Shown one piece after another: positions 1-28,823 of a stretch of 37,606 nucleotides of DNA (positions are counted from its first letter, which is position 1; each line of letters begins with the position of its first letter). The DNA is taken from assembly GCA_945874455.1 (NCBI GenBank), contig CAMCHO010000024.1, forward strand, positions 1 to 37,606, read 5' to 3'. The DNA is from Opitutus sp. GAS368. Its GTDB lineage: Bacteria; Verrucomicrobiota; Verrucomicrobiia; Opitutales; Opitutaceae. The notes beneath the pieces are model-generated. The model saw only the letters and a list, made by a program, of their open reading frames with translations, did no database searches and was not told where the DNA came from. Position numbers and translations under genes: made by a program.

Positions 1-1623
1 CGCCCCGAGCGTGGACAACTTCGCGCGCAACGTCGCGTAGTCCACGCGTTGCACGGCGAGTTCGCCGGTGATCGCCATCGAGGCGGCGACGCCGGCGGCT
101 TCGGCGAGGGTCATCCACACGGGCTCCATCCGGATCGAAGTCATCGCGATGTGGCTCGCGGAGCAGCACACCGGAACGAACACGTTGCGGCACTCGCGCT
201 CATGGGGCGTGATTGCCCGGTAGGGAATCTTGTAGATGCCGCGGTGCGTTTCTTCGAGGTAGAGCATCGAGTAGTCGCCGCCTTGCAGCGCGACTTTGCC
301 AGCGAGCGGATGCATCGCGTAAGGCCAGTCATCAACGCCGTAGGAGGCGAGGCCGACGGAGTCGCTGGGGTCCGTCGTTCCCTCCATGTCTTTTTGCGTC
401 ACGACGTAGCTCGACACCATGCGGCGCGCCTCGCGGACGTAAAGCTGGTGTGGCCAGCCGGCCGTGTCGTCGAACTGGCCGGGCGCGAAGCCGACCGCGG
501 CCGCTCTGGTTTTCAGTTTCTCCGGCACGGAGGGATCGGTGCGGAGAAAATGCGTCATGCCGCGCATAAAATCCTGATGGAATTTCCAGATGCGCGCGCG
601 CGTCCGCCAGTCGCCATCGGGATAGGCGGCATTGCAGCCATAGACCGTGGGTGCGACGAGGCTACGGGTGAGGTTGCCGGTCTCCGGGGTGTGGACGCCG
701 CCGGCGGCCTCCTCGTAAACGCCGAGTTTCCTCATGCGGCGTCCCTCGATCTTGATTTTTTGCGTGAAGGCGCGGCGGTAGATTTCGAACGTAAACGGGT
801 CGTAGTCGGCGGGCGGCTCGATGGGGATTTGGTTTTTATCGAGCGTAAATTTCCAGCGGAAGCCGTAACCCATGGTGAGTTTATCGGCGCTGCCGATGGG
901 GCCGGGGGTGTGGTCCTGGAGCAGCGGCAGGAGCCCACTGCGCGGATCGCCAGGTTTCACGTAGGGATCGAGGTCGTAGACGGCGAGCGGGGGCCGGACG
1001 CCGGCGAGGGATTCGCCGTAGTGATCGCGCGACTCGCGGCCGTAGGTGTAGCTCACGCCGGCCTTGGCCATGAGGTCGCCCTCGTAGGAGCAGTCGATGA
1101 ACATCCGCGCGCTCACGGTGACGGCGCCGGCGATTTTCGGTTGAGCGATGGGACAGCCGAAGCGATCGGGCGGAGCGTGATCGAGGACAAGAGACTTGAG
1201 CGTAGCGCCGTCTTTCGTGACGGAGGCAAGCCGATGTTCGTAGAGGATTTCGACGCCGTGCTCCTTCGCGAGGTCGGCGAACATGTGGCGGTATTGCGGA
1301 TCGTTGAGCCCGTCTTTCAGGATTTTTTTCGCGGAGCCGCCCGCCGCCTCGGAGCGGCCCCAGTCGATATGAACGAGTCCGCTGCCGGTCATCCCGCCGA
1401 GCCAACGGCTGGGCTCGATCACGAGGACACGGCGGCCCTCGCGCGCGGCGGCGACGGCAGCGGCGATCCCCGCGGCGTTGCCGGCGTAAACGCAGACATC
1501 GGCGGTGAGGGCGCGAGGTTCGGCAGCACGAAGCGGCAGCAGCGCACCCACGGCGACCACGCCGCCGAGGCGGATGAACGCTCGCCGGTTAGATGGCGTG
1601 GTCAGATGCGCGGAGGGGCCCAT
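1..1623 (-). CDS. FAD-dependent oxidoreductase (FAD_oxidored family), Tat-exported, 3' end outside window
   Basis: Conceptual translation of the minus strand from the ATG at 1623 is open to the window edge (541 codons, no stop seen). The N-terminus has a twin-arginine signal (NRRAFIRLGG, then a hydrophobic stretch ending LPLRAAEP). The mature protein begins with a Rossmann-type FAD-binding segment (DVCVYAGNAAGIAAAVAAA, then EPSRWLGGMTGSGL), with Ala-Gly-Asn replacing the more usual Gly-Gly-Thr in the dinucleotide loop. Further conserved-looking segments are FIDCSYEGDLMAKAGV and YVREARRM, which are typical of the PF12831 FAD-dependent dehydrogenase family. Function is inferred as a periplasmic flavoprotein; the substrate is unknown. 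The start overlaps the upstream TBDR stop (TGATG), which suggests translational coupling and membership of the TBDR operon. Prefolded Tat export fits a protein that loads FAD in the cytoplasm. Confidence 0.88.
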   Translation of the reverse strand, partial: MGPSAHLTTPSNRRAFIRLGGVVAVGALLPLRAAEPRALTADVCVYAGNAAGIAAAVAAAREGRRVLVIEPSRWLGGMTGSGLVHIDWGRSEAAGGSAKKILKDGLNDPQYRHMFADLAKEHGVEILYEHRLASVTKDGATLKSLVLDHAPPDRFGCPIAQPKIAGAVTVSARMFIDCSYEGDLMAKAGVSYTYGRESRDHYGESLAGVRPPLAVYDLDPYVKPGDPRSGLLPLLQDHTPGPIGSADKLTMGYGFRWKFTLDKNQIPIEPPADYDPFTFEIYRRAFTQKIKIEGRRMRKLGVYEEAAGGVHTPETGNLTRSLVAPTVYGCNAAYPDGDWRTRARIWKFHQDFMRGMTHFLRTDPSVPEKLKTRAAAVGFAPGQFDDTAGWPHQLYVREARRMVSSYVVTQKDMEGTTDPSDSVGLASYGVDDWPYAMHPLAGKVALQGGDYSMLYLEETHRGIYKIPYRAITPHERECRNVFVPVCCSASHIAMTSIRMEPVWMTLAEAAGVAASMAITGELAVQRVDYATLRAKLSTLGA

Positions 1624-4600
1624 CAGAACGTCCTCGTGGCCGAGAGGCGGAAGCTGCGCGGCGTGGTGTAGCTGAAGTAGCGCGGGTAACTCACGCGCGC
1701 CGGCGAGGTGAGGTCGCCGTTGGCAGCGCGCAAGCCGATCGTATTGTAGAGCGGGGTGTCGTAGTTGAAGAGATTCGTGATCGAGAGATTCAGATCGACC
1801 TTCTGGCGGCCGAAGAGCTTGACGGGATAGCCGATGGTGGCGGTGCCGAGGAAGTAAGCTTTTTGCCAGACGACCGTGTAAGCATCGACTTTCGGATCGT
1901 CGATGGCGACGAGCGGGTTGGTCGCACTCACGATGGTATCGGCACCGCGGTAGCCGATCACTTGCGGGCCGCGGAATTGCATGCCGTAGCCGAGGCGGAG
2001 GCCGGTGAGTTTGCCGCGGCTGAAGCGGTAGTCGGAGTAGGCATTGGCGGTGTATTTGGTCAGGCGGTTGAGGAGCTGCGTGCCGCTGACCCAATTCGCG
2101 CGACTGGCTTGAAGACTGTTCCACGCATTGACGGTGCTGTTGAGGTCGAGCGAGTTTGCGGTGGTGACGCCGGGCTTCGCGGAGGCGAGGCCGCCGGCAT
2201 CAAGCTGAACGCCGGAATCATCGAGGATCTGTTTGAAGGCAGGCGTCTGGGCGTCGACCCACGCGCGTGTCTGGCGGTAGGCGTCGGTCTGCGAAGCGTT
2301 AGCGAGGCCGACGTTGAGGGTGAGGCGCCAGTTAGCAGCGAGATTGGCGACCGTCTCGAGTTCGTAGCCGCGGCTCTTGCGGTCGAGCGTGTCGTTCCAC
2401 GCGATGGGCACATCGCCGAGGCCGCGGCGGTTGCGGCCGTCGGAGCTGAGATCGCCGACGACGTTGGCGTTGATGATTGCCTGCAGATTACTGAAACCGG
2501 AGGGCTGCGAGATGGAGGCGTCGTTCTCCTTCGACTCGTAGCGGCTGAGGGTGACGTAGAGCTTTGGACCGAAGGAGACGCGGAGGCCATAGTCCTTCCC
2601 CTCGGAGACCGAGGGCGGTGGCGTGCCGTAGTCGATCGTCGTTTTGGTGAAATCGGTGGGGTTGAAGGTCTGCGCGAAATTCGCCCAGACGGAAACGCCG
2701 CGGCCGAGGTTGAAGATGCCGCCGACGGATTTGGTGGGTTTTTTCGTCTGCGTGGGCGGCGGGTTGAAATCGTCTTGGAAACGGTCGCGGGCGTATTGCG
2801 GGAGGGCGACGCCCGTCGTCGCGTCGCGCGGGCGCGTGGCGGGCGCGAGTTGCGAAGGGCCGGTCGCGACACCGGCGGTGTTTTTCGGGACGTAGGTAAG
2901 TTTGAAATAATCGGCGGGCGCGTCTGGGCGGTAGATGAAGTGGTCGCGCGTGAGCACGCCGTAGGTCGCCGGATGATCGAGCGGGCGGAGGAAGAGGCGC
3001 TGGCTGCGGTCGACTTGGTCGGCGCGGAAGGCGCCGAGGACGATGAGGCGTTTTTGCCAGAAGGAAACGTTGGCGGAGGCTTGGTAATATTTCGTGGTGG
3101 CGTCGCTGAAGACCGTGGCGTCGTTGCGGTCGGAGCCGAGAACCCAGAGCGGATTGTAGGTGCGGGAAGTGCCGGCGCTGGGATCGACGAGCGTGATGGA
3201 CTTCATCTCGGTGAGTTCGCGCTCGCGCTGGTTCCAATAGTAACGGTAACGCAGCGTCTGCGTGCGCGTGCTGCTGACGAGGCCCCAAGCGCGGGGATCG
3301 GCGTCGAAGGGAATCATGTAATATTCGCGGGAGCGGAAGAGCTGCTGGTTTTCGTGAGCGCCGATGAGATTGGCGCGAACATCGAACCAGCGAGTGCTCT
3401 TGGCGTAGGCGGCGGCGAAACGCAGAGCCTTGTTGGTGGTGTCGACTTTCTGGCGCTCGGGGCGGCTGAATTCGTTGTAGGGCTGGAGGAAGTTCGGGTT
3501 CGCGGCGCCGTCGGGGAGGAGACGGTTGATGTCGATGAACGTGTTTTGGTAGCCCTGATTGGTGTAGTAATCGATGAGGCCGTAGCTGAAGAGCTTGTTA
3601 ACGCCGCCGGAGAGCTGGACGTTGAGTGATTCGCCGAGGCGCTGGTCGATGAACATCGTGGCGTCGCGGAAGCGGTTAATCGCGGTGGGATTCGGCCCGA
3701 TGTTGGTGAACGAGCGGCTCGGCACGCGGAACGCGGAACCGGCAATCGCCGCGTCGTAGATGCCGGGCGTGATCATGGGCGTGTCGATGAGCGGTCCGCC
3801 GTTAAAGCCGAGGTTGCCGCCGCTGGCCGCGGTGAGGCCGTTGACGGAGCGGTTGCCGCCGAAAAACGTGGTCTGCATCATGCCCGTGTAGCTGAGCGCG
3901 GTGTCGAAGCCGCGGCCGGAGGCGGGCGAGACGATCCAGCTATTGGTGCCGACGCGCGAGGCACCGAAGGCGGACTGGCTGGGGAGCGTGGCGGCCTGGA
4001 GACCCGAGTAAACGGTCCGGCCGTCCCAGCCGGTGAAGGAGTCGTTGAGGGTGTTCATACCCGCGGTGACTTTCTGTTCGTAATAGTCGCCGATGAGCGA
4101 GACGCGGGTGGTGCGCGTGGGCTCGACGGTGAGCGAGGGCGAGACGCCGCGGCGCTGCGTGCGTTCCCAATCGCGAAACGTGTGGGTGTCCTGCCAGGTG
4201 GTGACGACGCGCGCGGCGATCTTGTTTTTCAGCGCGTAGTTGGCATCGACGGTGGCGCGGAGGGAATCCCACGAACCATACTCAGCGCGGACCTCGGTGG
4301 CGTTACGGCCAAGACGGGCGCTTTTCACGACGGCGTTGGACGTGCCACTGATGGTGCCTGTGCCGAAGAGGATCGAGTTGGGGCCGCGCGCGTAGTCCAT
4401 GCGCTCGAGGTTGTAGGTCGAGGGATTGGAACCGCCGGTGAAGAAGTTGCGGTTGACGGCATTGGAGCCGACGCCGCGGATCGTGCTGCTGCCGGTGCCG
4501 CCGAAGAGCTGGCCACCGCCATCGTCGGGCGTCGTTGTCGCGCTGACGGTCCAGTTGATGGCCTCGTTGAGATCGCTCAGGTTGAGCGCGTCGAGGAATT

Positions 4601-4838
4601 CGCGGGTCTGCACGGAGTAGGCGACGGGCGTGTCGACGAGATCGGTCGCGAGCCGTCCGCCGGCGAGCGAGCTGGCGGCGACGAAGCCGACGTCCTTCGA
4701 CGTGTTCACCTCGAAGGGCGAGAGCGTGACGAGGGGCTGAGTCGAGGCGGCCGACGCGGGCGCGGTTTGAGCGAAGGTCGCGGTCGAGTAGCCGAGCAGG
4801 CCGACGAAGAGGAGAGCAATCAGACGAAGGTGGTTCAC
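1623..4838 (-). CDS. TonB-dependent receptor, second of tandem pair
   Basis: An outer-membrane TBDR of 1071 aa. It has a Sec signal peptide (hydrophobic core about residues 5-20, cleavage near TFAQ), then the LSPFEVNTSKDVGF motif that serves as the TonB-box region in these receptors. A plug domain follows (about 50-200; DTPVAYSVQTREFLD, IRGVGSNAVNRNFF, YARGPNSILFG), then a long beta-barrel ending in an aromatic residue (RLSATRTF), as expected for outer-membrane barrels. The ligand is unknown. The start is GTG, 18 nt after the stop of the upstream paralogue, with a pyrimidine-rich leader and no Shine-Dalgarno sequence. The two receptors are strikingly alike in the plug N-terminus, so a tandem duplication is likely. 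The downstream oxidoreductase overlaps its stop codon by one base, so these form one operon. Confidence 0.93.
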   Translation of the reverse strand: MNHLRLIALLFVGLLGYSTATFAQTAPASAASTQPLVTLSPFEVNTSKDVGFVAASSLAGGRLATDLVDTPVAYSVQTREFLDALNLSDLNEAINWTVSATTTPDDGGGQLFGGTGSSTIRGVGSNAVNRNFFTGGSNPSTYNLERMDYARGPNSILFGTGTISGTSNAVVKSARLGRNATEVRAEYGSWDSLRATVDANYALKNKIAARVVTTWQDTHTFRDWERTQRRGVSPSLTVEPTRTTRVSLIGDYYEQKVTAGMNTLNDSFTGWDGRTVYSGLQAATLPSQSAFGASRVGTNSWIVSPASGRGFDTALSYTGMMQTTFFGGNRSVNGLTAASGGNLGFNGGPLIDTPMITPGIYDAAIAGSAFRVPSRSFTNIGPNPTAINRFRDATMFIDQRLGESLNVQLSGGVNKLFSYGLIDYYTNQGYQNTFIDINRLLPDGAANPNFLQPYNEFSRPERQKVDTTNKALRFAAAYAKSTRWFDVRANLIGAHENQQLFRSREYYMIPFDADPRAWGLVSSTRTQTLRYRYYWNQRERELTEMKSITLVDPSAGTSRTYNPLWVLGSDRNDATVFSDATTKYYQASANVSFWQKRLIVLGAFRADQVDRSQRLFLRPLDHPATYGVLTRDHFIYRPDAPADYFKLTYVPKNTAGVATGPSQLAPATRPRDATTGVALPQYARDRFQDDFNPPPTQTKKPTKSVGGIFNLGRGVSVWANFAQTFNPTDFTKTTIDYGTPPPSVSEGKDYGLRVSFGPKLYVTLSRYESKENDASISQPSGFSNLQAIINANVVGDLSSDGRNRRGLGDVPIAWNDTLDRKSRGYELETVANLAANWRLTLNVGLANASQTDAYRQTRAWVDAQTPAFKQILDDSGVQLDAGGLASAKPGVTTANSLDLNSTVNAWNSLQASRANWVSGTQLLNRLTKYTANAYSDYRFSRGKLTGLRLGYGMQFRGPQVIGYRGADTIVSATNPLVAIDDPKVDAYTVVWQKAYFLGTATIGYPVKLFGRQKVDLNLSITNLFNYDTPLYNTIGLRAANGDLTSPARVSYPRYFSYTTPRSFRLSATRTF

Positions 4839-4856: not shown

Positions 4857-7800
4857 TTAAAAGTCGAGGCGCGCGGTCAGTGTCCAGTTGATCGGCGTGC
4901 GATAAGAGAAGCCCGCGGGCACAGTGTAAACCGCGGGCGAGGTGACATCGGCGTTGCGGTTGCGCAGGATCGTGTTGCTCGTCTGGCCGCCGGGGAGATT
5001 CACAAAATACATCGGGGTCGTGTTATTGAGCACGTTTTGGATGTTGAGGTTGAAGCTCACGGTGCGGCGATCGCGCAGCTTCCAGTTGTAGCCGAAGCGC
5101 ACATCGGCGGTCGTGTGCGGACGCGAATAAACCGGCGTGTAGGCATCCACCGAGGGATCGTCGATCGCGGCGGCGGGGTTGGCGGGATTCACGATGGTGT
5201 CGGCGCCGCGGTAGCCGACGACCATCTTGCCGCGATAGCGGACGCCGAAGCCGGCGGAGAGCCCCTTGAGCAGGCCCTCGCGAAACGAATAGTCGGTGCC
5301 GAGGTTCGAGGTGTAGTCGGTGGCGCCCGCGAGTGTCTGCGCGCCGGTGACGAGGTTGGGAATCGTGGTCGTTTGGAGGGTGTTCCAAGCATTCACGGCG
5401 TTGTTGACGGCGCCTTGGTTGATGCGGGTCGGGTCGTTCACGGCGGGATTGATCGTCGCGACGTTGGTCGAGCTAATGAGCACGCCGGCATCGGCGAGGA
5501 TCTGGCGCGCGACGGCGTCCTTCGCGACGATAAACGCGCGACTGTCGGGGGCGATTTCCTTTTGGGTGCCGCGGGTGTGGGCCATATTAAAGAGCAGGCG
5601 CCAAGACGATGTGAGGTTGGCGGTGATCTCGAGTTCGAGACCCTTGGATTCCTGGGTCTGCGTGTCGCGGACGACCACGGGGAGGAGGCCTTCGTTGCGC
5701 GCGTTGCGCCCGCCGGGGCTGAGGTCTCCAATGACGGGCGTGCTGGAGATCGTGTTGAAGCTGCCGATGAGGCCGCCGGGCGCGTTGACCGGGGAGAGGT
5801 TCTGATTCGAAGTGAACCAACCGAGGCTCATCGAGACGCGGCCGCCCAGCGGAGTCAGACGGATGCCGGCGTCGATGCCTCGCGAAGCGGAAGGCGGGAG
5901 CAGCGAACTGTCGAGGCGCTGCACGAGGAGATTCGGGTTAAACGTGGTCGCGAGATTGCTGTAGAAGCCGAGCCATTTCGTGGCGTTGAACGTGGCGCCC
6001 ACCGAGAAGGTGTTGGAGGCAACGTTGAGCGCGGGCGGGTTGTAGTCGTCGCGGAAACGGTCGCTGGCGTATTGCGGCTGCGGAAGAATGTTGCCGGCGG
6101 CGACCGTGGCGGTGGCGGGCACGGTGAGACGCGGCCGGTTGTCGGCTGGCTGCGCGGGACCGGTCGCGACCCCGGCGGCGTTTTTCGGGATGAACGTGAG
6201 TGTGGCCCAATCCTTCGGCGCGGCAGGTTTGAAGATGATGTTGCTGCCCGTCCAGCCGGCAGCGTAGTCGCCGGGGAGGAGCGTGTTCTTCGTCTCGAGA
6301 TTGGTGATGTCGCGGCGCGCGGCGCCGATGAGCACGAGCCGGTTTTTGAAGAGGCTGAAATTGACCGCGGCCATCACGTGTTTGAATTTCGTGATGTTAT
6401 CCGCGCTGTTGTCCTTACGCGTGGCGTCGAGGATGTGCTGCGGAGTCACCGTCGTCGTGGTGCCGTCCGGATTGCGCAACGTGAGCGGACCCTGTTCGGT
6501 ATTATAGAAATCGCGGCCGCCCTGATTGAGGTAGAGGCGGTGCCAGAGCGCGGTGCTGGCCTGCGATTGCGACCAATAGCGCGCGTCGGGTCCGATGCTT
6601 TGCAGCGGCAACAGGTAGAGAAAGCTGCGTTTCGACTGGAGCTGATAGTTGGCGCCGCCACCGAGGGCGAACTGCAGTTTGCCGATCCCGGTCTCCTTGA
6701 TGTAGGCGGCCGAGGCGCGCGCGCTGCTCAGTTCGTAGCCGCGCAGGTTCTGGTAACTCCAGAATTCGGTGTAGGGCTGGCGGAAGTTCGGGTTCGGGGC
6801 GCCGTTGGGGAGCGTCTGCGAGATGTCGATGTAAACGGTGTTGGCGCCGCGGTTGATCGCGTTGTTGCCGTCGATGGTCACCTTGTTGGTGTCGCCGGCG
6901 ATTTCGAAAAAGAGGGCGCTGCCGATACGGTGGTTCAGCGTGAGGGACACGTCGCGGGCGACCTGCGCCTGCGTCGGTTTTTTACTCGTCCAGAGATTCG
7001 TGGTTTCCTGCGTGGGGATGCGGAATCCTGGCGAGCCGGCCAGGACGGCGTCGTAACGTCCGGCGGGCACTTCGAAGCCATCGATCATGGGCTGCCCGCT
7101 GAAGTTGACGCTGGCGCTGGTGATCGCGCGGCCGCCGATGAGATTGCGGTTGGCGGCGGTGCCGTTGCCGGTCGCGCCTTTCGTGCGGAGGACGTTCGCG
7201 AAATTCATGACTTGGCCGGTGCCGAACGCCGTGGGATCGAACACCCAGAGCGGGGCGAAGAGCGGGTTCGCGTTATTGGTGCCATAGGCGACGCCGGCGG
7301 CGGCCTGCTGCGCGGCGGTCGGCACTTCGGGCGAGCCCGGCAGGACCGCACCGGCGTAGGTTGTCCGGCCATCCCACGCGGAAACCTGATCGGTGAGAAA
7401 CGTCGGAAACGTCTTCTGCTGCGTCTCGGCGTATTCGCCCTCGGCGCGAAGGGTGGTGTTCTGGGTAAGGTGATACGTGCTGGCGATGAAGACGGCCTTC
7501 TTCCGGCGCCACTCGTTCTCGCGGTACGTGTCGCCACGCTCCCACATGCCGGCGACACGCACGGCCGCCTTGTCATTGATGGGCTGGTTCACGTCGACCG
7601 TCGCGCGGAACTTGTTCCACGACCCGAGCTGCAGCTGTGTCTGGCGAATCGTTTTTCCGGTGAGCGCCTGCTTCGTGACCGAGACCGGCGTGCCGCCGAA
7701 CTGCGCGGCGCCAAAGAGAATGGCGTTGGGCCCGCGCGCGAAATCGAAGCGGTCGAGCGCGTAGCTGTCGGTGTTGTGGTTGAACGGGAAAAAATTCCGC

Positions 7801-8216
7801 ATCGGGTAGTTCGATTCGCCGGGCGCGGCGCCGCGGATCGTGATGTTAATGGCGGGCGAAAAACCGAAGCCTTGGTCCACGTTGTTGCCGGGGTTGTAGG
7901 TGGTGTTAACCGACCACTCCATCGCCTGCGTGAGATCGGTGATGTTGAAGGCGTCGAGAAATTCCTTCGTGAGCACCGAGTAGGCGACGGGCGTGTCCTT
8001 GAGCTCGGTGTTGAGCCGTCCGCCGGCGAGCGCGCTCGTGGCGACGAAGCCCTCGTCGCGGCTCGTGTTCACCTCGAAGGGCGAGAGCGTGATGGTCGAG
8101 TCTTTCCCGGCAGAACTCGAGGCGGGAGCCGGCGCGGTCTGCGCCGAGGCAACGGCAACGGCAGCGGCGAACGTGGCGAGCGCGACGGTGAGGCGCGCAG
8201 TGAGGGATTGCTTCAT
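4857..8216 (-). CDS. TonB-dependent receptor, first of tandem pair
   Basis: A TBDR of 1119 aa, the first gene of the operon. Signal peptide at residues 1-25 (cleavage after AVASA), then TLSPFEVNTSRDEGF as the TonB-box-like segment. The plug domain includes KDTPVAYSVLTKEFLDAF, ITIRGAAPGESNYPMRNFF and FARGPNAILFGAAQFGG; the barrel ends WTLTARLDF. The plug N-terminus is closely related to the next receptor, while the barrel loops differ, as expected if the two take up related but distinct ligands. The ligand cannot be read from the sequence. It lies directly downstream of a two-component system and behind a palindromic site identical in type to the one before the regulator gene, so control by that regulator is inferred. 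Confidence 0.94.
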   Translation of the reverse strand: MKQSLTARLTVALATFAAAVAVASAQTAPAPASSSAGKDSTITLSPFEVNTSRDEGFVATSALAGGRLNTELKDTPVAYSVLTKEFLDAFNITDLTQAMEWSVNTTYNPGNNVDQGFGFSPAINITIRGAAPGESNYPMRNFFPFNHNTDSYALDRFDFARGPNAILFGAAQFGGTPVSVTKQALTGKTIRQTQLQLGSWNKFRATVDVNQPINDKAAVRVAGMWERGDTYRENEWRRKKAVFIASTYHLTQNTTLRAEGEYAETQQKTFPTFLTDQVSAWDGRTTYAGAVLPGSPEVPTAAQQAAAGVAYGTNNANPLFAPLWVFDPTAFGTGQVMNFANVLRTKGATGNGTAANRNLIGGRAITSASVNFSGQPMIDGFEVPAGRYDAVLAGSPGFRIPTQETTNLWTSKKPTQAQVARDVSLTLNHRIGSALFFEIAGDTNKVTIDGNNAINRGANTVYIDISQTLPNGAPNPNFRQPYTEFWSYQNLRGYELSSARASAAYIKETGIGKLQFALGGGANYQLQSKRSFLYLLPLQSIGPDARYWSQSQASTALWHRLYLNQGGRDFYNTEQGPLTLRNPDGTTTTVTPQHILDATRKDNSADNITKFKHVMAAVNFSLFKNRLVLIGAARRDITNLETKNTLLPGDYAAGWTGSNIIFKPAAPKDWATLTFIPKNAAGVATGPAQPADNRPRLTVPATATVAAGNILPQPQYASDRFRDDYNPPALNVASNTFSVGATFNATKWLGFYSNLATTFNPNLLVQRLDSSLLPPSASRGIDAGIRLTPLGGRVSMSLGWFTSNQNLSPVNAPGGLIGSFNTISSTPVIGDLSPGGRNARNEGLLPVVVRDTQTQESKGLELEITANLTSSWRLLFNMAHTRGTQKEIAPDSRAFIVAKDAVARQILADAGVLISSTNVATINPAVNDPTRINQGAVNNAVNAWNTLQTTTIPNLVTGAQTLAGATDYTSNLGTDYSFREGLLKGLSAGFGVRYRGKMVVGYRGADTIVNPANPAAAIDDPSVDAYTPVYSRPHTTADVRFGYNWKLRDRRTVSFNLNIQNVLNNTTPMYFVNLPGGQTSNTILRNRNADVTSPAVYTVPAGFSYRTPINWTLTARLDF

Positions 8217-8286
8217 GGTGGTAGGGTGTGAGTGGGGCGCTTCCCGTGGTCGTCAGCGACAGGCCGCGATGCCATAGGATGAGCAG

Positions 8287-8335
8287 AGAGTACAGCCACG
8301 CCGCAAGCGCGCGCTATTGTCCGATCGGCCAATAG
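8287..8335 (-). promoter_or_regulatory. Putative response-regulator operator and -10 element of the TBDR operon
   Basis: A 22-bp near-perfect palindrome (CTATTG, 10 bp, CAATAG; one mismatch between the halves) at 8314-8335 begins 10 bp after the regulator stop codon. On the minus strand a -10-like TACTCT lies at 8287-8292, separated by 21 bp. The same palindrome and spacing occur before the regulator gene (9001-9050). With the -10 placed here, the palindrome centres near -45, where an activator overlapping the -35 region would bind. Operator identity is inferred. Confidence 0.65.
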
Positions 8336-8344
8336 ACCCCACGT

Positions 8345-8974
8345 TCAGACCTTCAGCAAACCACGTTCAAAACCGCGGGCGACGGCCTCGGCGCGGTCGG
8401 CCGCCTGCAATTTGCAGAGCAACGCGCCGACGTGCGCCTTGGCGGTGCGCTCGGAGATACCGAGCAACCGGCCGATGTCGGCATTGGTGAAACCCTGCCG
8501 CACCAAGCCCAATACCTCCAGCTCACGTCGGGAAACGGCTCCGCTCTCCTCGCCCGCCGCGAGTTGCCGGGCCACCGATTCGCCGATGACGCGCGCGCCG
8601 GCGCATACCTCGCGGATCGCCGCGACCAGTTCCGCGCGGCGCACATTCTTGGTCACGTAGCCGCCGGCTCCGGCCTTGAGCGCGTGCCGGACGTCCTCGG
8701 GAGCCTCGGAGGAGGTGAGCATGAGCACCCGCGCATCGGGAAACTCGGCGCGTAACCGTTCCAGCGTCTCGATCCCGTCCATGCCCGCCATGCTGAGATC
8801 CAGCAGCATCACGTCCGGACGGAGCGTGCGCCATAACGCGATGGCCGACGCACCATCATCGGCTTCGGCGACCACTGTGATCCCGGGTTCGTAGTTCAAC
8901 ACGTTGGCCAAACCAGCGCGCAGCACCGGGTGGTCATCGACCAGCAGGAGACGGATTTTCGGGACGTTCGGCAT
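8345..8974 (-). CDS. NarL/FixJ (LuxR-type) response regulator
   Basis: A 209-aa response regulator. The receiver domain occupies about residues 6-122: acidic pair D13/D14 (LLVDDHPVLR), phosphoacceptor D59 (VMLLDLSM), T87 and K109 (GYVTKN). The C-terminal LuxR/GerE helix-turn-helix spans about 146-190 (SRRELEVLGLVRQGFTN, then ERTAKAHVGALLCKL). All key residues are present, so it should be phosphorylatable and DNA-binding. It lies 82 bp downstream of the histidine kinase, its obvious partner, and upstream of the TBDR operon. A palindrome just before the gene and another before the TBDR operon suggest autoregulation and direct control of uptake. Confidence 0.96.
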   Translation of the reverse strand: MPNVPKIRLLLVDDHPVLRAGLANVLNYEPGITVVAEADDGASAIALWRTLRPDVMLLDLSMAGMDGIETLERLRAEFPDARVLMLTSSEAPEDVRHALKAGAGGYVTKNVRRAELVAAIREVCAGARVIGESVARQLAAGEESGAVSRRELEVLGLVRQGFTNADIGRLLGISERTAKAHVGALLCKLQAADRAEAVARGFERGLLKV

Positions 8975-9000
8975 GACTGGCGGGTGGGTGTTTATCGGCA

Positions 9001-9050
9001 GGAGTATGCGCGCGGCTCGCAGTGGACGCTATTGTCCGATCGACCAATAG
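9001..9050 (-). promoter_or_regulatory. Putative operator and -10 element of the response regulator gene
   Basis: A 22-bp palindrome at 9029-9050 differs at one base from the site at 8314-8335; the CTATTG and CAATAG hexamers are identical. A TACTCC -10-like element lies at 9001-9006 on the minus strand, 22 bp downstream. The site is in the 82-bp gap between the kinase and regulator genes, starting 6 bp after the kinase stop. It would allow the regulator gene to be transcribed separately from the kinase and to be autoregulated. Confidence 0.62.
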
Positions 9051-9056
9051 GGCACC

Positions 9057-11246
9057 TCAGGCCACATCCTCATCATAGGCGCGCAGCGGCACCTCGAGGT
9101 AAATCGTGGTCCCTCCGCCCGGCACGCTTGCGATGCGCAGGGTGCCGTCGAGCCGCTCCATGCGTTCGCGCATTCCTTCGAGGCCAAAGTGTCCTGCGGT
9201 CGGACCCGCCTGCGTGCCGGGCGTAAAGCCCACGCCGTCGTCGCGGATACTCAGGGCGATCCAGCCCGGTTTTTCCGCGGGCCGGGCCTCGAGGATGATG
9301 GTCCGGGGCTGGCCGTGTTTGAGCGCATTGTGCAGCGCTTCCTGCGTCGCCAGCAGCAGATTGCCGGCCACAAAATCCGGCACGCGGGACAGGTCACCTT
9401 CGGTGCGCACCTCGATGCGCGCCTCGTGGCCCGAGCCGGCGCGTTCGGCGAGCGACGCCAACACTTGCGGCAGCGTCAAACCCCGCATCGGCAGACTGCG
9501 CAACGTCCAGACCGAGCCGCGCAACTCACCTGCCGCGTGATCCAACATTCGTCGCGCCACTTCCAGATGGGAGGCCAGCTTTCCGCCCTGACTCGGGACA
9601 GCGGCCTCCGCATCGCAGGCTTCGAGCTGGAAACCGATACCCCCGATCGTCTGCAGTAGCGTGTCGTGCAGGTTTGCCGCGAGGCGGTTGCGCTCGCGCA
9701 AGGTGGCTTGGAACTCAATGGCCGCATCGCGGCGCGCGCCCATTTCCTTCGCGAGATCGTGCGTCTTGCGGTGCACCTGCCGGCGCAATTGCCAGGCCCA
9801 AAGCAAAGCCCCGCCGAGCATCAACGCCCCGATCGCAATCACGCCCCCCAGTCGCGCCGTCGTCCACCACGAGGGCGCGCGCACCACCGTCACGTCCGCC
9901 GCGTTTCGCAACACGACGTCGAGCTGCACCGGGCGCAGAAACGCCCGCGCCCCTTCGACCACGGCGTATTCGAGCTGCACGATACCAGCCACCTCCAGCT
10001 CGCTGTCCGGCTGCATGGCATCCAGCGCCGCCGCGTCGCCTTGGTGAAGGATGGCTCCGAGGATCATGCTGCCCTGTTTCAACGTGAGTCGGCGCCAGGG
10101 CAGCTTTCCGTCCGGCGCGGACTGCACGGCGAGCAACTGCGCGCGAAAGCGGATGAGATGTCCGTCGAAATCGTGAGGTTGCGCGGCCTGCCCGTTGTTC
10201 ACAGCGGCGCTATTCAGCGCCATGATTTCCTCGGGGGTGATCACCACCGCCGCGGGCAAATCGCCCACACCGATCTTGCGCACGTCCGCTCCGCCGAGCC
10301 CGCCGACGCGCCGCGTCATATCGACGAAGCCCGCCGCCTCCACCCGATCCCCTGCGCCGAGGGCGACGTCCGACCGCGACTCCACCCGCACTGCGCGAGT
10401 GTTTTCCTGCAGATAGAAAAATTGGCCCGGCAACGCAAACGTCACGGTGCCCTCGACGCGCAGCCGCTGCGGTTTTTCCGGCTCGGGGTGGAAGGCACGC
10501 AGTCGATCCAGCGGCAGGAGTGGCGCGCCGAAGGGCGACGGCGCGGCGGGTTTTTCCACCACGAAATCCCCCGGAATGCTCACCAAGATTCGCGCATTCA
10601 GAAATTCGCCGCGCGTATTGAAGCCTGAGCCCGCAACGCCGCGCACCCTCACCTCCGCGTCCAAAATGGCTTGGGGATCCGGGACCACGTCCTTGGACAC
10701 GATCACCCACACAATGTCGGCGCCCGCCTGCATCCGCAGTTTCCAACCAACATCCAGAGGGAGGAAACCGAGGACCACGCCGTGAGCCTCGATCCGCTGG
10801 CCAGCCTCTGCTCCACTGAGAAAGCCGATGCGCTCCAAGGGTCGCGCTGCTGGCAGCGGTTTCGTGCCCAAGATGCGGATGGCTTGAGGCGCGATCACCG
10901 GGGCAAAGCCAGCGGCACGGGCGACACCGTCGATCTCCAACTCCATGCCTTCGGTGATTTCGGCGAGGACGGCCTCCTCTCCATTCCACAGTTGCTGCTG
11001 ACGGGCCACGAACACGTGCACCCACGTGCCGCCCGATGCATCTTGGATGGCAAATTCGTCGCGGCCGGATCGCCACGTCACCACCCCACGCACCGTGACC
11101 GGCAGCGAATTCGCTGCCGCTTCCCGCGACAGCGCGCGGACCTCGGCGATGCGGATGATCGGTTCCGCAGCTCGCGCCACGTCGCCATAAAAACCCGCGC
11201 ACAGCCAAGCCGACATGAGGAGCAGGCCACGAAGAAACGGTTTCAT
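9057..11246 (-). CDS. Membrane-bound sensor histidine kinase with beta-rich (OB-like) periplasmic repeats
   Basis: About 729 aa from the ATG at 11246; a GTG nine bases upstream is possible, but AAGG sits at a better distance from the ATG. A signal peptide or N-terminal anchor is followed by about 420 periplasmic residues. These contain roughly four tandem beta-rich units with the recurring pattern V-x-G-V-V-T...F-x-I-Q-D (for example VTVRGVVTWRSGRDEFAIQD, RIEAHGVVLGF and RLRVEGTVTFALPGQFFYLQ). One transmembrane helix follows (LGGVIAIGALMLGGALLWAW), then a HisKA_3 dimerisation domain with the phospho-His near residue 527 (ANLHDTLLQTIGGIG). The HATPase domain has an N box (ATQEALHNALKHG) and G boxes (RDDGVGF; GHFGLEGMRERM). 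It is the NarL-type partner of the adjacent regulator. The ligand is unknown. Confidence 0.93.
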   Translation of the reverse strand: MKPFLRGLLLMSAWLCAGFYGDVARAAEPIIRIAEVRALSREAAANSLPVTVRGVVTWRSGRDEFAIQDASGGTWVHVFVARQQQLWNGEEAVLAEITEGMELEIDGVARAAGFAPVIAPQAIRILGTKPLPAARPLERIGFLSGAEAGQRIEAHGVVLGFLPLDVGWKLRMQAGADIVWVIVSKDVVPDPQAILDAEVRVRGVAGSGFNTRGEFLNARILVSIPGDFVVEKPAAPSPFGAPLLPLDRLRAFHPEPEKPQRLRVEGTVTFALPGQFFYLQENTRAVRVESRSDVALGAGDRVEAAGFVDMTRRVGGLGGADVRKIGVGDLPAAVVITPEEIMALNSAAVNNGQAAQPHDFDGHLIRFRAQLLAVQSAPDGKLPWRRLTLKQGSMILGAILHQGDAAALDAMQPDSELEVAGIVQLEYAVVEGARAFLRPVQLDVVLRNAADVTVVRAPSWWTTARLGGVIAIGALMLGGALLWAWQLRRQVHRKTHDLAKEMGARRDAAIEFQATLRERNRLAANLHDTLLQTIGGIGFQLEACDAEAAVPSQGGKLASHLEVARRMLDHAAGELRGSVWTLRSLPMRGLTLPQVLASLAERAGSGHEARIEVRTEGDLSRVPDFVAGNLLLATQEALHNALKHGQPRTIILEARPAEKPGWIALSIRDDGVGFTPGTQAGPTAGHFGLEGMRERMERLDGTLRIASVPGGGTTIYLEVPLRAYDEDVA

Positions 11247-11736
11247 CCGTCGCACCTTGCCGCCGAGACGCCCGGAAATGAAACGTCCTCCGCGTCGTTC
11301 CCCCGATCAGCTCGCGCACCCACCCGCACCCGAAAATCGTTTCGCCCCATCGACTCGTCGCATGACACGTCCTCGGTAAAGCAGGCGAGGGAAACAGGCT
11401 GGGGCGCATCCACGAAGCGGATTTACACGGCGCGTCGCGGGTGAATCAAGACTGAGGCGGCGAGAGTATTCATTTTCATGGTGAACGGAGCCCGGTGACC
11501 CGGCCCAGCTCCACGTTTCGGACACAACAACGGCACGGATTTCTCCGCTCCGCCGTGTTCCAAATCGAAAGTAAAACCATTCTCCTCCCCACCTCCTCGA
11601 TCCTCTTCATGACGTTGGCTTAGTATGGCCATCTGAAGTTCAAGTTTCTTGAGGGCACATCACTCCTCATGGTGATCTTCGTATCGTGGGGCATCGCGTT
11701 TTTTTGGGTCTGCCCGAATCCGTTTCTAAGATCTAC

Positions 11737-19957: not shown

Positions 19958-22900
19958 TCAGAATGTTCCGCGCAGGCCGAGGGATAGCTGGATACCGTAT
20001 TCCGTCTCTTGGAATTGGCGCGCGTAGGCCGGAGTTTCGGGGCCGTAGCGAAGGAGGGTCTGCGGCTCGTTGAGGAGGTTGTTCACGCTGGCGGCGAGGG
20101 AGAGGCGGCGTGTGAGCTGGTAGGTGGCGTTCACGTCGAGCGTGATGCGCTCCTTATAATACCCATAGCCCTCCGGGCCAAACACGGCCTGCGGCGCGCG
20201 GCGATCCATGCCGCGGTAGTTCCAGCGGGCGGTCACGCTCACGCGCTGGTTGGAAAATGTCGCGCCCCAGTTGCCGCTCTTCGGGACGAAGCTCGTGAAC
20301 GCCGCGCGCGGGCCACCGTCGAGATCGAGGTAGGTGGCGTTGGCAAAGACCGTAAACGGCGCGCCGAATCGGCCGAGGATCCGCAGCGAGTGGCGCGCAT
20401 TGAACTCCGCGCCAGTGATGCGGGCGTCGCCAGCATTGAATTTCGTGAGGACGTTCCAGCCGAGGTAGCGCGGGTCGAGGCCGAGTTCGTTGAGCAGCGC
20501 GCTGTCGGCGATGCGCGCGGAGTCGCCGAAAAAGTTGGCGATGTCCTTGCGGAAAACTCCCGCGCTGAGGAGGCCGCCCTGCGGCGTGTAATACTCGAAC
20601 GAGAGATCGAAGTTGTCGGCAGTCCAGGGGCGCAGCGTGGGGTTGCGGATGTTGAGCGTACCGCGGCCGGTGACGGGATCGGGATCGTCGTCGTCGAGGT
20701 CGGCGGCGGTGGCCACGGTGCGGGGGATGATGTCGGTGAAGTTGGGACGACCATAGGTTTTCGCCCACGCGGCGCGGGCCACGAAGTTTTCAGTGACGTT
20801 AAACGTGAGGTGCGCGCTCGGGTAGTAGCCGCTGTAGGTGCGGTCGGAAAAGGAGGCGCGCAGCTTCCGCGTAAGGAGGAACTGCGCGTAGGAGTTGGCC
20901 GCACCAGCCTCGGGCTTGCGCACGCGGAGGCCGGCGGCGTTGCGAATGTAGGAGCCGTCGGCGGCACGCTGCCAGACGGCGTCGGCGTCGTTGAGGCCGC
21001 CTTGGCCCTCGTCGTGCGTGTGCTCGAAACGCACACCGCTGAGGAAGCGGAGGCGGTTGTGGAAAAAAGCGGCGTCGGCTTGCACGTAGGCGGAGCGGAC
21101 GGTCTCGCGCACGAACTCGGAGCCATCGACGCGGGCGTTGCCCTCGGCGAAGCGCTGCGCCTCCGTCTTGGTGTAGAGCGTGGGATCGGCCTGATAGGCC
21201 TGAAAGACGCGGACGGGCGACATCCACTCGATGCCGAAGTAGCCGTAATGGGAATCCATGTCGCGATAGACCTGCATCCCCTAAGGCTCCGCGGTGGCGT
21301 TGGCCGGGCCGTTGAACGTCAAGTTGATCGCCTGCGGATTCGTGTCGAGGCGCTGGATACGCTGGGCTCCGCCGATTTGGAGCGCGGCGGGGAACGGAAG
21401 AACATCGAGACGGCGGCGGACGTTCACGTAGCCATTGCCCGCGAGGTTGATGGTGTTGGTGTCGGCCACGTTCGTCGTGGTCGGGCGGTAGTTCGAGAGA
21501 TCGCGCCAGTCGAAGGGCTGGTTGGTGGCGTCGAACACCTCGATGCGGCTGGGCTGGTCGCCCGCGATGTCGAGGAAGTTGATCCGGATCGGACGGCTGT
21601 TGGTGGCGATGGTCTGGTAGAAAAAACCGCCGTCCCAGTAGCGGCGCTTAAAACGCGATTCGGAACGGCTGAGACCGGACTCGAGCCGCCAGCGGCCATC
21701 GTCGTAGCGGAACGTGAGGTTGGTGTTATCACTCTTCTGATTCGCCAGCTGCGCGGTGCCGTTGTTGGTGATCGTGGCGCGACCGAGGGAGCCGCGGAAA
21801 AATGTGGAATCCCACGTGGCGTTGGGCGAGGCGTTGGCGAGTGTCGGCGTGCCGTTGGCACCGGCGTTGAACGTGAGCTGGAGCGCGCCGATGCGCGTGG
21901 TGGAGCGGTTGAGGACGTGGCCAAGGGAGAGCACGCCGTGGCGCATCACGCGCCAGTCGGCCTTCGCGCTGAAGGAATTGCGGGAGATGTTGCGCGGGCC
22001 GTCGATCAGCAAAAAAGACTGGAGGTAGGGATTTGTCTGCGAGGCGGCGGCAAGGGCGCCGCCCGTGCCCGTCGTCGCCCAAGTCGTGCGCGCGAAGTGC
22101 TGCTCGTTGTAGATTTCCGTGGTGGTGCCGGCGATCACGACGCCGAAGTCGCGCGTAACGGGCCACGTGAAATCGAAATTCGCGCCGGGAAGAATCGTGT
22201 GCTCGAGCTGATCGCGCTGCGAGTGCGGCATGCGACCGAACGTGAGAGCCTCGTGGTTGCCGACGACATTGACGCCCCAACGGAGCTGCCGACCGCTGCG
22301 CTCGAAGGCGCTCTTGCTAACAAGATTCACGGAGCCGCCGAGCGAGTCTGCGGGGTTCGCGGGCGTGGGGACTTTGGAGAGCTCGATGCGGGAAATGTCG
22401 TTGAGCGCCATCGAGCGCACATCGACGGTGCGCGTGGCACCGGTCCAGATGTTGGTCGCGGGCGCGCCGTCGGAGGTGATGGCGGTCATCGCCCCGCCGA
22501 GGCCGCGGACCGAGACGCCCGCGATGTCGGCGTTGTCAAAATCGGCGGTGAGGCCCGGCATGAATTTCAAGAACTCGCCGACGCTGCCGCCGAGCACATC
22601 GCCGAGCGCGTCGGTCGAGAGCACGTTTTTCAAATTGGGCGCAAAGCGCTGCTCGTTGGTCGCAATCGCCTGCGCATCGGTCTCTTTATCGGAGGCGACG
22701 ACGAACGCGTTGAGCTTCACCGCCGTCGCGTCGCGCCCGTAGCGCTGGGCACTCGTGAGATCGACGTGGCGCTCGATCACGCCGCCGGCTGGCACGATGA
22801 GATTCACGACGACCGGATCGAGATCAGTGTAAAAAAACTCGACGACTGCGGGGCCGGCGGGGACGCCGACGAGCCGGTAAGTGCCGAAGTTGTCGGTAAA

Positions 22901-23071
22901 CGTGACGTGATCGCCGCCGCGCAGCGTGACGCGGGCCTGGTTGAGATATTGACCCGTGACGACATTTTGCACGCGCCCCGTGATGGAGCCGGTGGCGGCG
23001 GCAGCGACGGACTCCGCTGCAAACACGATGATCGAAGCAAGCGACATCAGCCGAAGGAACGAGGTAATCAT
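19958..23071 (-). pseudogene. TonB-dependent receptor interrupted by one in-frame TAG codon
   Basis: From the ATG at 23071, 596 codons run to TAG at 21281-21283. The frame then continues GGG-ATG and stays open for 439 more codons to a normal barrel end (LSLGLRGTF) at 19958. The first part has a signal peptide (ITSFLRLMSLASIIVFAAES), a CarboxypepD_reg-like domain (SITGRVQNVVTGQYLNQARV), a plug domain (VSVRGLGGAMTAITSDG, ISRIELSKVPTPANPADSLG, SVNLVSKSAF) and the start of the barrel. The second part has only barrel strands (RFLSGVRFEHTHDEGQGG, TADNFDLSFEYYTPQGGL). Total length, about 1037 codons, fits an intact TBDR. A CAG-to-TAG transition is the simplest origin. The second half has an ATG two codons after the stop but no signal peptide, so it is not an independent outer-membrane gene. 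This is a recent pseudogene, an assembly error or a readthrough case. Confidence 0.88.
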
Positions 23072-23136
23072 GGGGACGGGGATTGGCCGGACATCACGCC
23101 ATAGCCCGCGCAGAGGCCAGCGCAATTGTCCGCCCT

Positions 23137-23250: not shown

Positions 23251-23451
23251 CGCCGAAGCTCGCCAACACGTGGTCGAATTTCATTTGCATGCAAACCGGT
23301 GACGCTGCCGCCAACGCGGCCGGCGCCTTCGCGGACGGTCTCAATCATGGCCCGGCGCTCGCCGGCGCGCCGTATTTTGGCTTCCGCACATTTTTTATTC
23401 CCCGCCCACTTCAGCCGTGACGCCCCCGCGCTCCCCTGTTTCGTTGCCCGC

Positions 23452-26400
23452 ATGTCCGGCCTACCGCCCCCACCATCCCAACTCCGGATCGATCTCGCGG
23501 GCTGGCTGAATGAGTTCGCGATGGCCGACCGCACCAAGGGCCGCGATTACTATTCTCGGGGAAACGTCGGCTCCCTCGAACAAATCATTGATTCCCTCAC
23601 CACGACCGTCTTCGCCGCCGTTCGGGGCGGCGAAATCTACGAATGCTCGCTCACGCATACCCCCAGCGAGGGGTGGTCCGGCGATTGCTCCTGCCCTGTC
23701 GGCTACGAATGCAAACACCTCTACGCCGCCGGCACCGCCTTCCTCAATCAACTCGCCGCTGAAACCATCCAACCCTTCGAACGACCCATCCCGCTCGCCC
23801 TCTCCCCGCCGCCAAAATCCACCCCGCCGATCGACGAATCCTCCCTCGTCGCCACGTTCACCACCGCCACCGGTGCCGACCCCGACCGCAAGCAACTCAC
23901 GTTTCTCCGCAGCCTTCTCGAGCTCCACCGCAGCCTCCGCGCCGGTCACTACTTCGACTATCGGGCCCTCCAAAACCTCCTGCCCGCCACCCATCGGCAT
24001 CTATTTTCCAACTACTACCAGAATCCCTTCGACCACCGCTGGGCCCGCCACCCCGCCACCCCGCTCGAACTCTGGTCGCACCTCGCCCTCATCCTCACGG
24101 AGAAAAATACCCCGCTCCCCGCCTTCATGGCGAAGCTCACCGACCTCGCCTGGGCCCGCGCCGCCGTCGCCACCTACCTCCACGAACGTCAGCTCGCCGA
24201 ATGGCGCGCGCGTTTCGCCTCGCTGGAAAATACGTTCGTAGCCCACCCCGCCACCGACTCCCCGCCGCCACCCCTCCGCTCCCTCCGCCTCCACCTCGGC
24301 CGCAAAAAAACCTTCTGGGAAATCTCCGCCCTCGCTCCCGTTTTTCCCCCTCCTCCTCCGTCGCCCGCGTCTTCCCCGCCTCTGCCGCCTCGCTTCGAGC
24401 CCCTCACTGCCACCGAACTCCGCGAATTACTCGGCGCCGCCGAACACTTCGCCCTCACCTTGGAGCCCGCCTCCGCCAGCTTCGCCGCCATCCTGCGCGC
24501 CCACCAAGCCACCTCCGGCCGCACCACTCTGAAACTCACCGACGCCTACGACCTCACCTTTCTCGCCCGGCTCTTCAACCACCCGCTCGCCCGCACTTGT
24601 ATCGTCGACGAAGCTGGCCGCCCCATCACCCGCGACCCCCGCCGCCTCGTCTGGCAATTCCACGATCACCCCACCGATCCCACGCTCACCTGCGCCCAAC
24701 TCGGCTTTGCCGACGGCACGCCCGCGCCCGCCCCGCTGCTCCATCTCCCCGCGCAACCGGACCTCTACCTCCACGACGCCACCCTCTTCACGGGCCTGCC
24801 CCCGCCCAGTGCCCACGCCTCCCCCGCCGATGTCGCCGCGCCCGTCCCCGTCCCCCGCGCCGCCCTCGCCCTCCCCGAGGCCGGTCGCTTCGCCTCCCGC
24901 GCCGGCGTCATTCTGCCGAATGACACCTCCGGCCGTTTCCGCCACGAAACCCTCCGCCCACGCCTCCGCGCGAGACTCGGCCCGCGCCGCCCCGCCGGCA
25001 CCGACACCCACTCCGCGGGCGATGACGTTATTCTGGTTGAACTCGCCGCCCTCGCCCCCGACAGCACCCCCCGCGCCCTCCTCGACGGCGACACCTGGCG
25101 TCGCACCGGTCCCGGCCTCCCGCCCCCGCCACCCGACGCGGCTTTCCTGATCCTCGACTTCGAGCCCACCCGCACCGCCACCCAGCAGTTTCATCAACTC
25201 GTCCAAACCGCCGACGCCTGGCACCCCGACGGCCCGCGCTCCCACGTGGAAGTCACCGGCATCCATTTTCCGGAGACGTTCTCCACTTGGCTCGCCGGTT
25301 TCCCGCCCAACACCCTAATCGAACTCGCCCCCGAGCTCGCCGCCTTCGCTTCAGCCCCGACCCGCGCCCACTTCGCCATCGATCTCACGCCGGGCGACGA
25401 AACCGGCATCGATTGGTTCGACGTCCGCGTGACCCTCCGCGCCGAAGACACCACCCTCACGCCCGCCGATCTGGCGATTCTCCACGGCGCCCGCGGCCGC
25501 TTCGTCCGCCTCGCCGGCCACGGCTGGCGCCGCCTCATCCTCGACGATTCCACCGCCACGCAGGAAAAACTCGCCCGCCTCGGCCTCGACCCCGCGACCG
25601 CCGCCAGCGAGACCGCCCGCGAGCCCCTCCGCTTCCACGCCCTCCAGCTCGCCGACGAATCCCTCCGCGACGCCCTCCCCGAAAAACTCTGGGCCCAAGT
25701 CCGCGAACGCTCCGCCGCCCTCCGCGCCTCGCCGGCACCGGCCCTCCCGCCCGGCCTCGTCGCCGACCTCCGCCCCTACCAAAAAGAAGGTTTTCACTTC
25801 CTCGCCTTTCTCTCGGAAAACAATTTCGGCGGTGTCCTCGCCGACGACATGGGCCTCGGTAAAACCCTCCAAACCCTCGCTTGGCTCCTCCACCTCTCCG
25901 CCCTTAAACGTAAACGCCCCACTTCATCTCGCGCCTCCGCCGCGAAATCCTTCCGCGTCCTCGTCGTCTGCCCCAAATCCGTCATGGTCAACTGGCAGCT
26001 CGAGACCGCCCGCTTCGCCCCGAGCCTCACCACCACCGCCTTCACCTCGGCCCTCATCACCCCCAAACCTGAGACCCCGAACCCCAAACCCTCCGCGCGC
26101 TCCTCCGGCTCCCCGCTCTCAGCCCTGGGCACTCACCTCCTGATCGCCAACTACGCTCAGCTCCGCCTCTACGCCGACGCCTTCGCGGCCGAGAGCTGGG
26201 ACGCCGTCATCCTCGACGAAGGCCAGAACATCAAGAACCCCGCCAGCGCCACCGCGGCCGCCGCTCGCGCCCTCCGCACCGCCCACCGCCTCGTCCTCAC
26301 CGGCACGCCCGTCGAAAACCGTCTCCTCGACCTCTGGAGCCTCTTCTCCTTCGCCCAACCCGGCCTCCTCGGCGGCCAGACCGCGTTCAAACGCCTCTAC

Positions 26401-27396: not shown

Positions 27397-27413
27397 GGCG
27401 CGGTGTCCGCCCG

Positions 27414-27435
27414 CCCTCCTTCAAATGAGGGAGGG
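27414..27435 (+). terminator. Possible terminator hairpin after the SWIM-SNF2 gene
   Basis: CCCTCC (27414-27419) pairs with GGAGGG (27430-27435) around a 10-nt loop, 18 bp after the helicase stop, followed by GCTTT. The stem is short and the T-run weak. Its position argues that the next gene starts after it. Confidence 0.4.
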
Positions 27436-27507
27436 GCTTTACGCACCTCGATTTCGAGCGTGCCTCCCCTCTCCTCCGCGACTTTTCTTCCCTTCGCTTT
27501 TCCCCGC

Positions 27508-28701
27508 GTGCCCTCCCGTCGCTCACCCCGCCGCTTTCCGTTTCGCGCGTCCGCCCTCGCCCCCTGCGCGTTGCTCGTCCTCCTCTTCGCCGGCTGCGCC
27601 ACGAAGTCCGCCACCGACAAGCCCTACTCGACCCACGGCTGGGAAGATCACCGCCTCGCCAACTCGCCCGCGCCCTACCAGCGCCTCCTCGTTGAAATCG
27701 ATTCCGTCGCCGGCTGCGAACCCACCCCCGCCGAACTCGCCGCGCTGCGCGCATTCCTCGCCACGCACATCGACAAACCCGCGGGCATCGAGCTGCGCGT
27801 CGACCCGCCCATTCCCCGCGCCGAGGCCGCCGGCCGCAGCGTCGAAGCCCTCACGCTCGCCCACCTCTCCGGCCCGGCCGACGACCATACCGCTTTCATC
27901 TACATCCTGTTTTTCCGCAGCAGCCGCCTCGGCCTCTTCCCGCGCCCCAAGAATCCCTACTTCACGAACTACCCCTTCCCGAGCGCCATCTACATCGACC
28001 GCGCTTACCCCCGCTTCAAACTCATCTACCCCGCCGCACTCCAAGAGACGATTCTCCTCCACGAAGCCGGCCTCGCCCTCGGCCTCGCCCGCAACCCGGA
28101 GCACTCCGCCCGCGGCCACTGCATCCGCGAAGGCTGCCTCATGCGGGAGACCGTCGCTTTCAACGTCCGCCGCTTCTACAACTTCCGCCCGTCGATCGAA
28201 AACACCACGCTCTGCACCGACTGCCGCGCCGATCTCGCCCGCTTTCGCACCACCGAGCCGTCGGCCACCGAACGCCACTGGCGCGGCTACCACCGCCGCG
28301 ATGGCACCGGCTACACCGTGCTCACGCTCCCCCGTTTCTTCTACGTGCATTTCGGGGCCTTCGCAGACCTCGACCCGGACCACCTCGCCAGAAAACGCCG
28401 CGACTCCCTCGCCGCCCAACTCTCCGGCGATACCCAAACGGACCTCCACACCAGCTCCTTCAGCCCCGCCGACCACACCGCCACCTTCGCCCACTTTTGG
28501 CGCGAACAGACCACCGACGATTTACATTCCTTCGTCGAATCCTTGCTCGTCCGCTTCCTCGACCTCGCGGAGGAACGCCTCACCGCCGATCCCGCCGAAG
28601 CCCCCGCCATCCTGAGCGACGACCTCCTCCCGCTACTCGTCGACCTCCCGTCGCATCTCCCTCGCTTCGACGCCCTCCGCGCCAAACTCCCGCCTCCCTG
28701 A
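27508..28701 (+). CDS. Lipoprotein with degenerate archaemetzincin-like zinc site
   Basis: 397 aa from the GTG at 27508. The frame is open from 27403, but that start would precede the signal peptide by 35 residues and overlap the hairpin. An Arg-rich n-region, hydrophobic core and lipobox (LLFAGC, C30) predict a lipoprotein. The interesting part is H185-E186-A-G-L189-A-L-G192, then H204-C205-x4-C210-x-M212, then C236-x2-C239. This matches the archaemetzincin pattern HExxHxxG...HCx4CxM...CxxC, with a second zinc held by four Cys, except that the second His of HExxH is Leu (CTC; His would be CAC) and about nine residues are inserted before HC. Known archaemetzincins are cytosolic metallopeptidases, so a lipoprotein version is unusual. 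Catalysis by the usual mechanism is doubtful; it may bind metal or act on nothing. The family assignment is from motifs alone. Confidence 0.8.
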   Translation: MPSRRSPRRFPFRASALAPCALLVLLFAGCATKSATDKPYSTHGWEDHRLANSPAPYQRLLVEIDSVAGCEPTPAELAALRAFLATHIDKPAGIELRVDPPIPRAEAAGRSVEALTLAHLSGPADDHTAFIYILFFRSSRLGLFPRPKNPYFTNYPFPSAIYIDRAYPRFKLIYPAALQETILLHEAGLALGLARNPEHSARGHCIREGCLMRETVAFNVRRFYNFRPSIENTTLCTDCRADLARFRTTEPSATERHWRGYHRRDGTGYTVLTLPRFFYVHFGAFADLDPDHLARKRRDSLAAQLSGDTQTDLHTSSFSPADHTATFAHFWREQTTDDLHSFVESLLVRFLDLAEERLTADPAEAPAILSDDLLPLLVDLPSHLPRFDALRAKLPPP

Positions 28702-28730
28702 GCGCGCGCCCTCGTCCCGGGGCTCCTCCC

Positions 28731-28800: not shown

Positions 28801-28823
28801 TCGCCTCCCCGTTTCGACTCCGC

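Follow-up and report, generated by a model that had tools for sequence, protein, structure and literature searches.

Two nearly identical palindromes, one ahead of a response regulator (RR) gene and the other ahead of an operon of TonB-dependent receptors (TBDRs), raise the question of which protein would read them and what it would do to the genes behind. They lie in the window, as we call the whole 37,606-nucleotide stretch of Opitutus sp. GAS368 DNA that was analysed. In the literature searched, no paper dealt with the window operator or with how TBDRs are controlled in Opitutaceae. The best reading of the sequence would be a NarL-type, self-activating two-component switch, and the genome comparisons described here indicate that this predicted switch-and-site pair recurs before different uptake genes across the bacterial family.

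Along the minus strand the histidine kinase is followed by operator 1, the RR, operator 2, TBDR1, TBDR2 and the FAD-dependent oxidoreductase. The sensor histidine kinase (732 aa; 9057..11255, minus) carries the Pfam domains HisKA_3 and HATPase_c and, as read from its sequence, one hydrophobic segment near residue 470; its closest solved relatives are VraS and DesK, both of the HisKA_3 type. The periplasmic half is without Pfam match. An AlphaFold2 model of residues 30-455 (pLDDT 81) resembled OB folds of the PDB in a structure search, and the periplasmic part is predicted to be formed by tandem OB folds; on this model, the kinase has an unusual sensor. The model also resembles the anticodon-binding OB domains of aminoacyl-tRNA synthetases, with Z up to 12.8. 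A sugar-sensor fold was absent among the structure matches listed, which excludes nothing.

The RR (209 aa; 8345..8974, minus) consists of a receiver (Response_reg PF00072, 1.1e-31) followed by a LuxR/NarL-type helix-turn-helix domain (GerE PF00196, 4.6e-14). Its best solved relative in the PDB is NarL (3.3e-38), with VraR also among the best, and this domain order, together with the adjacent HisKA_3-type kinase, is that of the NarL/FixJ regulators. Behind operator 2 follow TBDR1 (1119 aa; 4857..8216, minus; Plug PF07715) and TBDR2 (1071 aa; 1623..4838, minus; Plug), about 37% identical when each was compared by tblastn with the G008 locus. The third gene of the operon encodes the FAD-dependent oxidoreductase (PF12831 FAD_oxidored, E=2.6e-79), which is truncated by the contig edge, 1..1620 (minus) being the in-frame stretch searched. 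Of the operon genes searched, none was recognised as SusD-like. Elsewhere in the window, at 19958-23125 (minus), a TBDR gene is apparently split by one in-frame TAG (21283-21281), with the Plug half before and the barrel half after it, either as a pseudogene or through an assembly error. At 23299-30061 (plus) an SNF2-type helicase, a protein without assignment and a Fic-domain protein are encoded side by side.

The two palindromes stand where the first-pass annotation had put them, and the single consensus CTATTGGYCGATCGGACAATAG covers both on the minus strand, at 8335-8314 and 9050-9029. Predicted operator 1 (9029..9050; minus CTATTGGTCGATCGGACAATAG, plus CTATTGTCCGATCGACCAATAG) is upstream of the RR gene and predicted operator 2 (8314..8335; minus CTATTGGCCGATCGGACAATAG, plus CTATTGTCCGATCGGCCAATAG) upstream of the TBDR operon; each is 22 bp long, and they differ at a single base. 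By chance 0.25 such palindromes (22 bp, up to two mismatches) are expected per window. In the 5.07 Mb source genome a search allowing one mismatch returned operators 1 and 2 only. A 52-position model of site plus promoter found them at E 1.3e-5 and 3.3e-5, both having been in its training set; the next-best match had E=0.41 and nothing else fell below 0.4. Further sites, which the annotation had proposed to seek in this genome, were not found within these limits, and the pair is thus not a dispersed repeat.

The annotation had also assigned -10 elements of the form TACTC(T/C) at 21-22 bp, and both are present on the minus strand, TACTCT 21 bp after operator 2 and TACTCC 22 bp after operator 1. 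The spacing among relatives, described below, keeps one of them and shifts the other. YANNNT stands exactly 20 bp after the 22-mer in 19 of 23 non-redundant RR promoters, and 19-21 bp after it in all 23 (shuffled mean 1.5), in 14/14 promoters downstream of the RR (shuffled mean 0.7) and at 12/14 sites outside the training set (shuffled 0.7), a few of these last having been picked with weak E-values. By this family register the predicted RR -10 is CATACT (9003..9008, minus), 20 bp after operator 1, where the fixed-gap pattern matches, and two bases upstream of TACTCC. For the TBDR operon TACTCT (8287..8292, minus) is compatible with the register and would be the best choice, with TGTACT at gap 19 as an alternative. 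Transcription would be expected to start near 8996 for the RR and near 8280 for the TBDR operon.

With the standard position of a -10 assumed, the site would span about -54 to -33. The earlier proposal of an activator site near -45 is supported by the fixed spacing to the -10 across the clade, with the centre recalculated to near -43.5. Between 8150 and 9150 of the window no sigma-70-type -35/-10 pair was found, as is expected of an activator-dependent promoter. On the predicted starts, a site adjoining the -35 position, a fixed gap to the -10 and the missing sigma-70 pair correspond to class II activation.

Relatives of the RR were sought in 252 genomes of the family. Its clade (52-99% identity) occurs in 22 of them, from seven genera, and comprises 24 loci, since two genomes carry two copies. 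A related site lies within 150 bp before the RR gene at all 24. Scored with a leave-one-locus-out position weight matrix against dinucleotide shuffles, 23 of the 24 RR-side sites reached p<=0.03, and that of G103 (p=0.12) was not significant by sequence alone. A second high-scoring site is found just downstream of the RR gene at 15 loci; in the nine other downstream regions none lies within 300 bp, and several of these have one further away. No such site was seen at the ten nearest paralogous RRs (41-47% identity), whose regions and best palindromes were read through.

The association also appears when the RR is ignored. An operator-only pattern, built from the sites of the source genome, G008 and G003, was run against about 85,000 genomes and matched nine stretches. 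Six of them belong to RR-clade loci; these come from four genomes, and two of the four had no part in building the pattern. The matches in L071, L078 and L079 lie outside RR-clade loci and were rejected as looking like chance palindromes. In L079 (5543-7988, from the planctomycete TBK1r) there is a perfect CTATTGGCCGATCGGCCAATAG palindrome and, 1.6 kb away, a protein 32% identical to the OB-fold sensor region of the kinase; no RR match was found there. Within the family, a fixed pattern of core, gap and -10 matched in 11/22 RR-bearing genomes versus 5/230 others (Fisher 5e-10), and a reversed control pattern gave one match. Among the five others, G156 has a partial clade RR beside the site, which is followed by a TBDR; in two more of the five the pattern precedes apparent housekeeping genes.

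Which bases are kept is a separate matter from the palindrome as first described. When 51 sites are compared, the positions of the 22-mer that vary least are C9, T12, C13, G14, G15, A19, T20 and G22, that is, the CCGATCGG core and the promoter-proximal arm, and the promoter-proximal half holds 13.9 bits versus 8.9 for the far arm. The outer CTATTG/CAATAG arms, offered by the annotation as the searchable operator, are instead the more variable part. In some relatives symmetry drops to 4/11 pairs. Relatives that retain the core and lose the symmetry indicate that it is the DNA sequence, not base pairing, that is conserved.

Four subtypes of recognition helix (SERTAKAHVG, SEWTAKSHVQ, SENTAKAHVR and SEHTVKAHVK) go with differing arm bases and a constant CGG core. 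G137 and G150 each carry RRs of two subtypes, and there the site on the RR side follows the subtype and not the genome. The sites diverge in step with the receiver domain (Mantel r=0.64) no less closely than with the DNA-binding domain (0.53), and much of the correlation is therefore accounted for by common descent. Co-variation of DNA-binding domain and operator was therefore set aside as a decisive proof of binding; the subtypes support, and do not prove, binding by the RR. Operator-like sites of more than one subtype also occur together: L129 (756-18009, G137:C350) has four within about 18 kb, ahead of three TBDR genes and a protein with MBG/fn3 domains, and no clade RR was reported on that contig. 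L132 (G005:C518) has two sites of SEHTVKAHVK-subtype likeness, and the clade RR found in G005 is of the SEWTAKSHVQ type only; the matching RR may be absent from the assembly.

As regards the genes behind the sites, the strongest hits of the genome-wide search had built the model, and only held-out sites are independent. There were 13 such matches at E<0.01 and outside the model training. Nine precede TBDR-type genes, counting one weak Plug match below the cut-off and one TBDR fragment at a contig end, and one precedes a GH3 gene, which agrees with the expectation of the annotation that sites in relatives would lie before TBDR or glycan genes. With an assumed TBDR background of 4%, a hand calculation gives a binomial p of about 2e-10 for the nine. 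The remaining three were rejected as support for a TBDR rule: G147:C8 precedes a protein without Pfam match, and two precede no recognisable gene (G067:C2, a short partial match with no start-site ORF behind, and G005:C77, with no long ORF). Sites held out of the training and close to the two-component genes stand before TBDR, sulfatase or GH3 genes in G014, G005, G147, G231, G198 and G140, some of them weak (G231, E 0.15; G147, E 0.29). Genes of GH2 (G183, G191, G196) and sulfatases (G003, G231) also follow sites in relatives. The cargo thus differs between relatives, and the regulator and the site persist. In the source genome the regulon for TBDR uptake, which the annotation had defined by the palindromes, holds in that RR gene and TBDR operon share the site, and shrinks to these two promoters. 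A genome-wide TBDR regulon is rejected for this genome, with two sites against at least 150 TBDR Plug matches; one marked TBDR operon among so many Plug domains points to local control.

It is very probable, on these comparisons of sequence, that the palindromes are binding sites of the RR, and that the kinase-driven RR activates its own gene and the TBDR operon in the class II manner. In the mechanism that we propose, the membrane kinase would detect a signal with its tandem OB-fold periplasmic sensor and phosphorylate the NarL-type RR. A dimer of the RR would then bind CTATTGGYCGATCGGACAATAG beside the usual place of the -35, where no -35 box is present, and recruit RNA polymerase. The RR would in this way turn on its own gene, in a positive feedback, and the TBDR1-TBDR2-flavoprotein operon. 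We infer that the RR is the binding protein, that it needs phosphorylation and that it activates, and likewise that a glycan or some similar nutrient is what the operon takes up. A wider proposal is more tentative and somewhat likelier to fail than to hold: tandem-OB-fold kinase, NarL-type RR and matching operator would form a self-contained control cassette found throughout the family, re-used before unrelated TBDR or glycan cargo, answering one common signal, with its subtypes insulated by co-varying helices and arms.

Palindromic sites are used by many regulators, and the RR is the predicted reader of these two; a different transcription factor (CRP/FNR-like, LacI-like or of some other kind), with its gene at another place, might use them at both promoters. 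We consider this unlikely, given that presence of the site tracks the RR clade across the family, that the paralogous RRs are without it, that it differs between the two RR subtypes within one genome, and that a global factor should show more than two sites in a genome of 5 Mb. Autorepression being common, the RR might instead be a repressor that keeps the uptake genes and the RR gene itself off until the signal releases it. The position of the site makes this quite improbable, for it lies upstream of the core promoter, which has no -35 box for unaided transcription; stronger conservation of the promoter-proximal half is, besides, what is expected of a site where the bound protein meets RNA polymerase.

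That the palindromes might act as RNA, as terminator or attenuator hairpins, or be mobile repeats such as REP elements, is suggested by near-perfect inverted repeats between genes, and operator 2 does come after the RR stop codon. Such an origin has next to no chance of being right. An intrinsic terminator, with its GC-rich hairpin and the T run after it, was not found between 8150 and 9150 of the window, the T run being absent, and there was no Rfam match. Relatives lose symmetry with the core bases kept, the genome has two copies only, and a hairpin leaves the constant gap to the -10 unexplained. Terminator, attenuator and REP element were rejected on these grounds, in line with the annotation, which had held terminators or random repeats to be unlikely.

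If the palindromes are operators of the RR, a sequence-defined site tied to one RR clade would connect individual uptake operons with one given sensor in genomes that, in this family, can hold very many TBDRs. It would predict regulated genes in uncultured genomes, and the operator set would provide a short list of DNA probes.

Among known systems, DevR/DosR of M. tuberculosis and OsdR of Streptomyces pair a NarL-type RR with a histidine kinase, as here. Sensor kinases of the DevS/DosT type carry a GAF domain; Pfam found none in the window kinase, whose modelled sensor is of tandem OB folds. The OsdR consensus box AGGGCCGATCGGCCCT, reported to conform to the DevR box, has a centre, CCGATCGG, identical to the core of the window operator (PMC5069765). 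As with the window RR, the genes for DevR and OsdR are themselves preceded by a site, and so are target operons nearby (PMC5069765). The shared CCGATCGG is in keeping with a reader of the NarL type and with self-regulation. The outer arms differ, TTGG..ACAA in the window operator against AGGG..CCCT in the OsdR box; OsdR has 43 predicted sites and the source genome two; and dormancy genes are the targets of DevR and OsdR, whereas TBDR uptake genes are those predicted here. With an OB-fold sensor and uptake-gene targets, both predicted, the window system is not the DevR system. NarL, VraR and other NarL/FixJ regulators have the domain layout of the window RR, and the operator and targets of NarL and VraR differ from those predicted in the window. 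In the polysaccharide-utilisation loci of Bacteroidetes the local regulators are hybrid two-component systems, SusR, or pairs of ECF sigma and anti-sigma factors. There, as in the window, a local regulator adjoins TonB-dependent uptake genes, to which relatives of the window locus add GH2, GH3 and sulfatase genes; unlike those loci, the window employs a separate kinase and a NarL-type RR with a predicted activator box.
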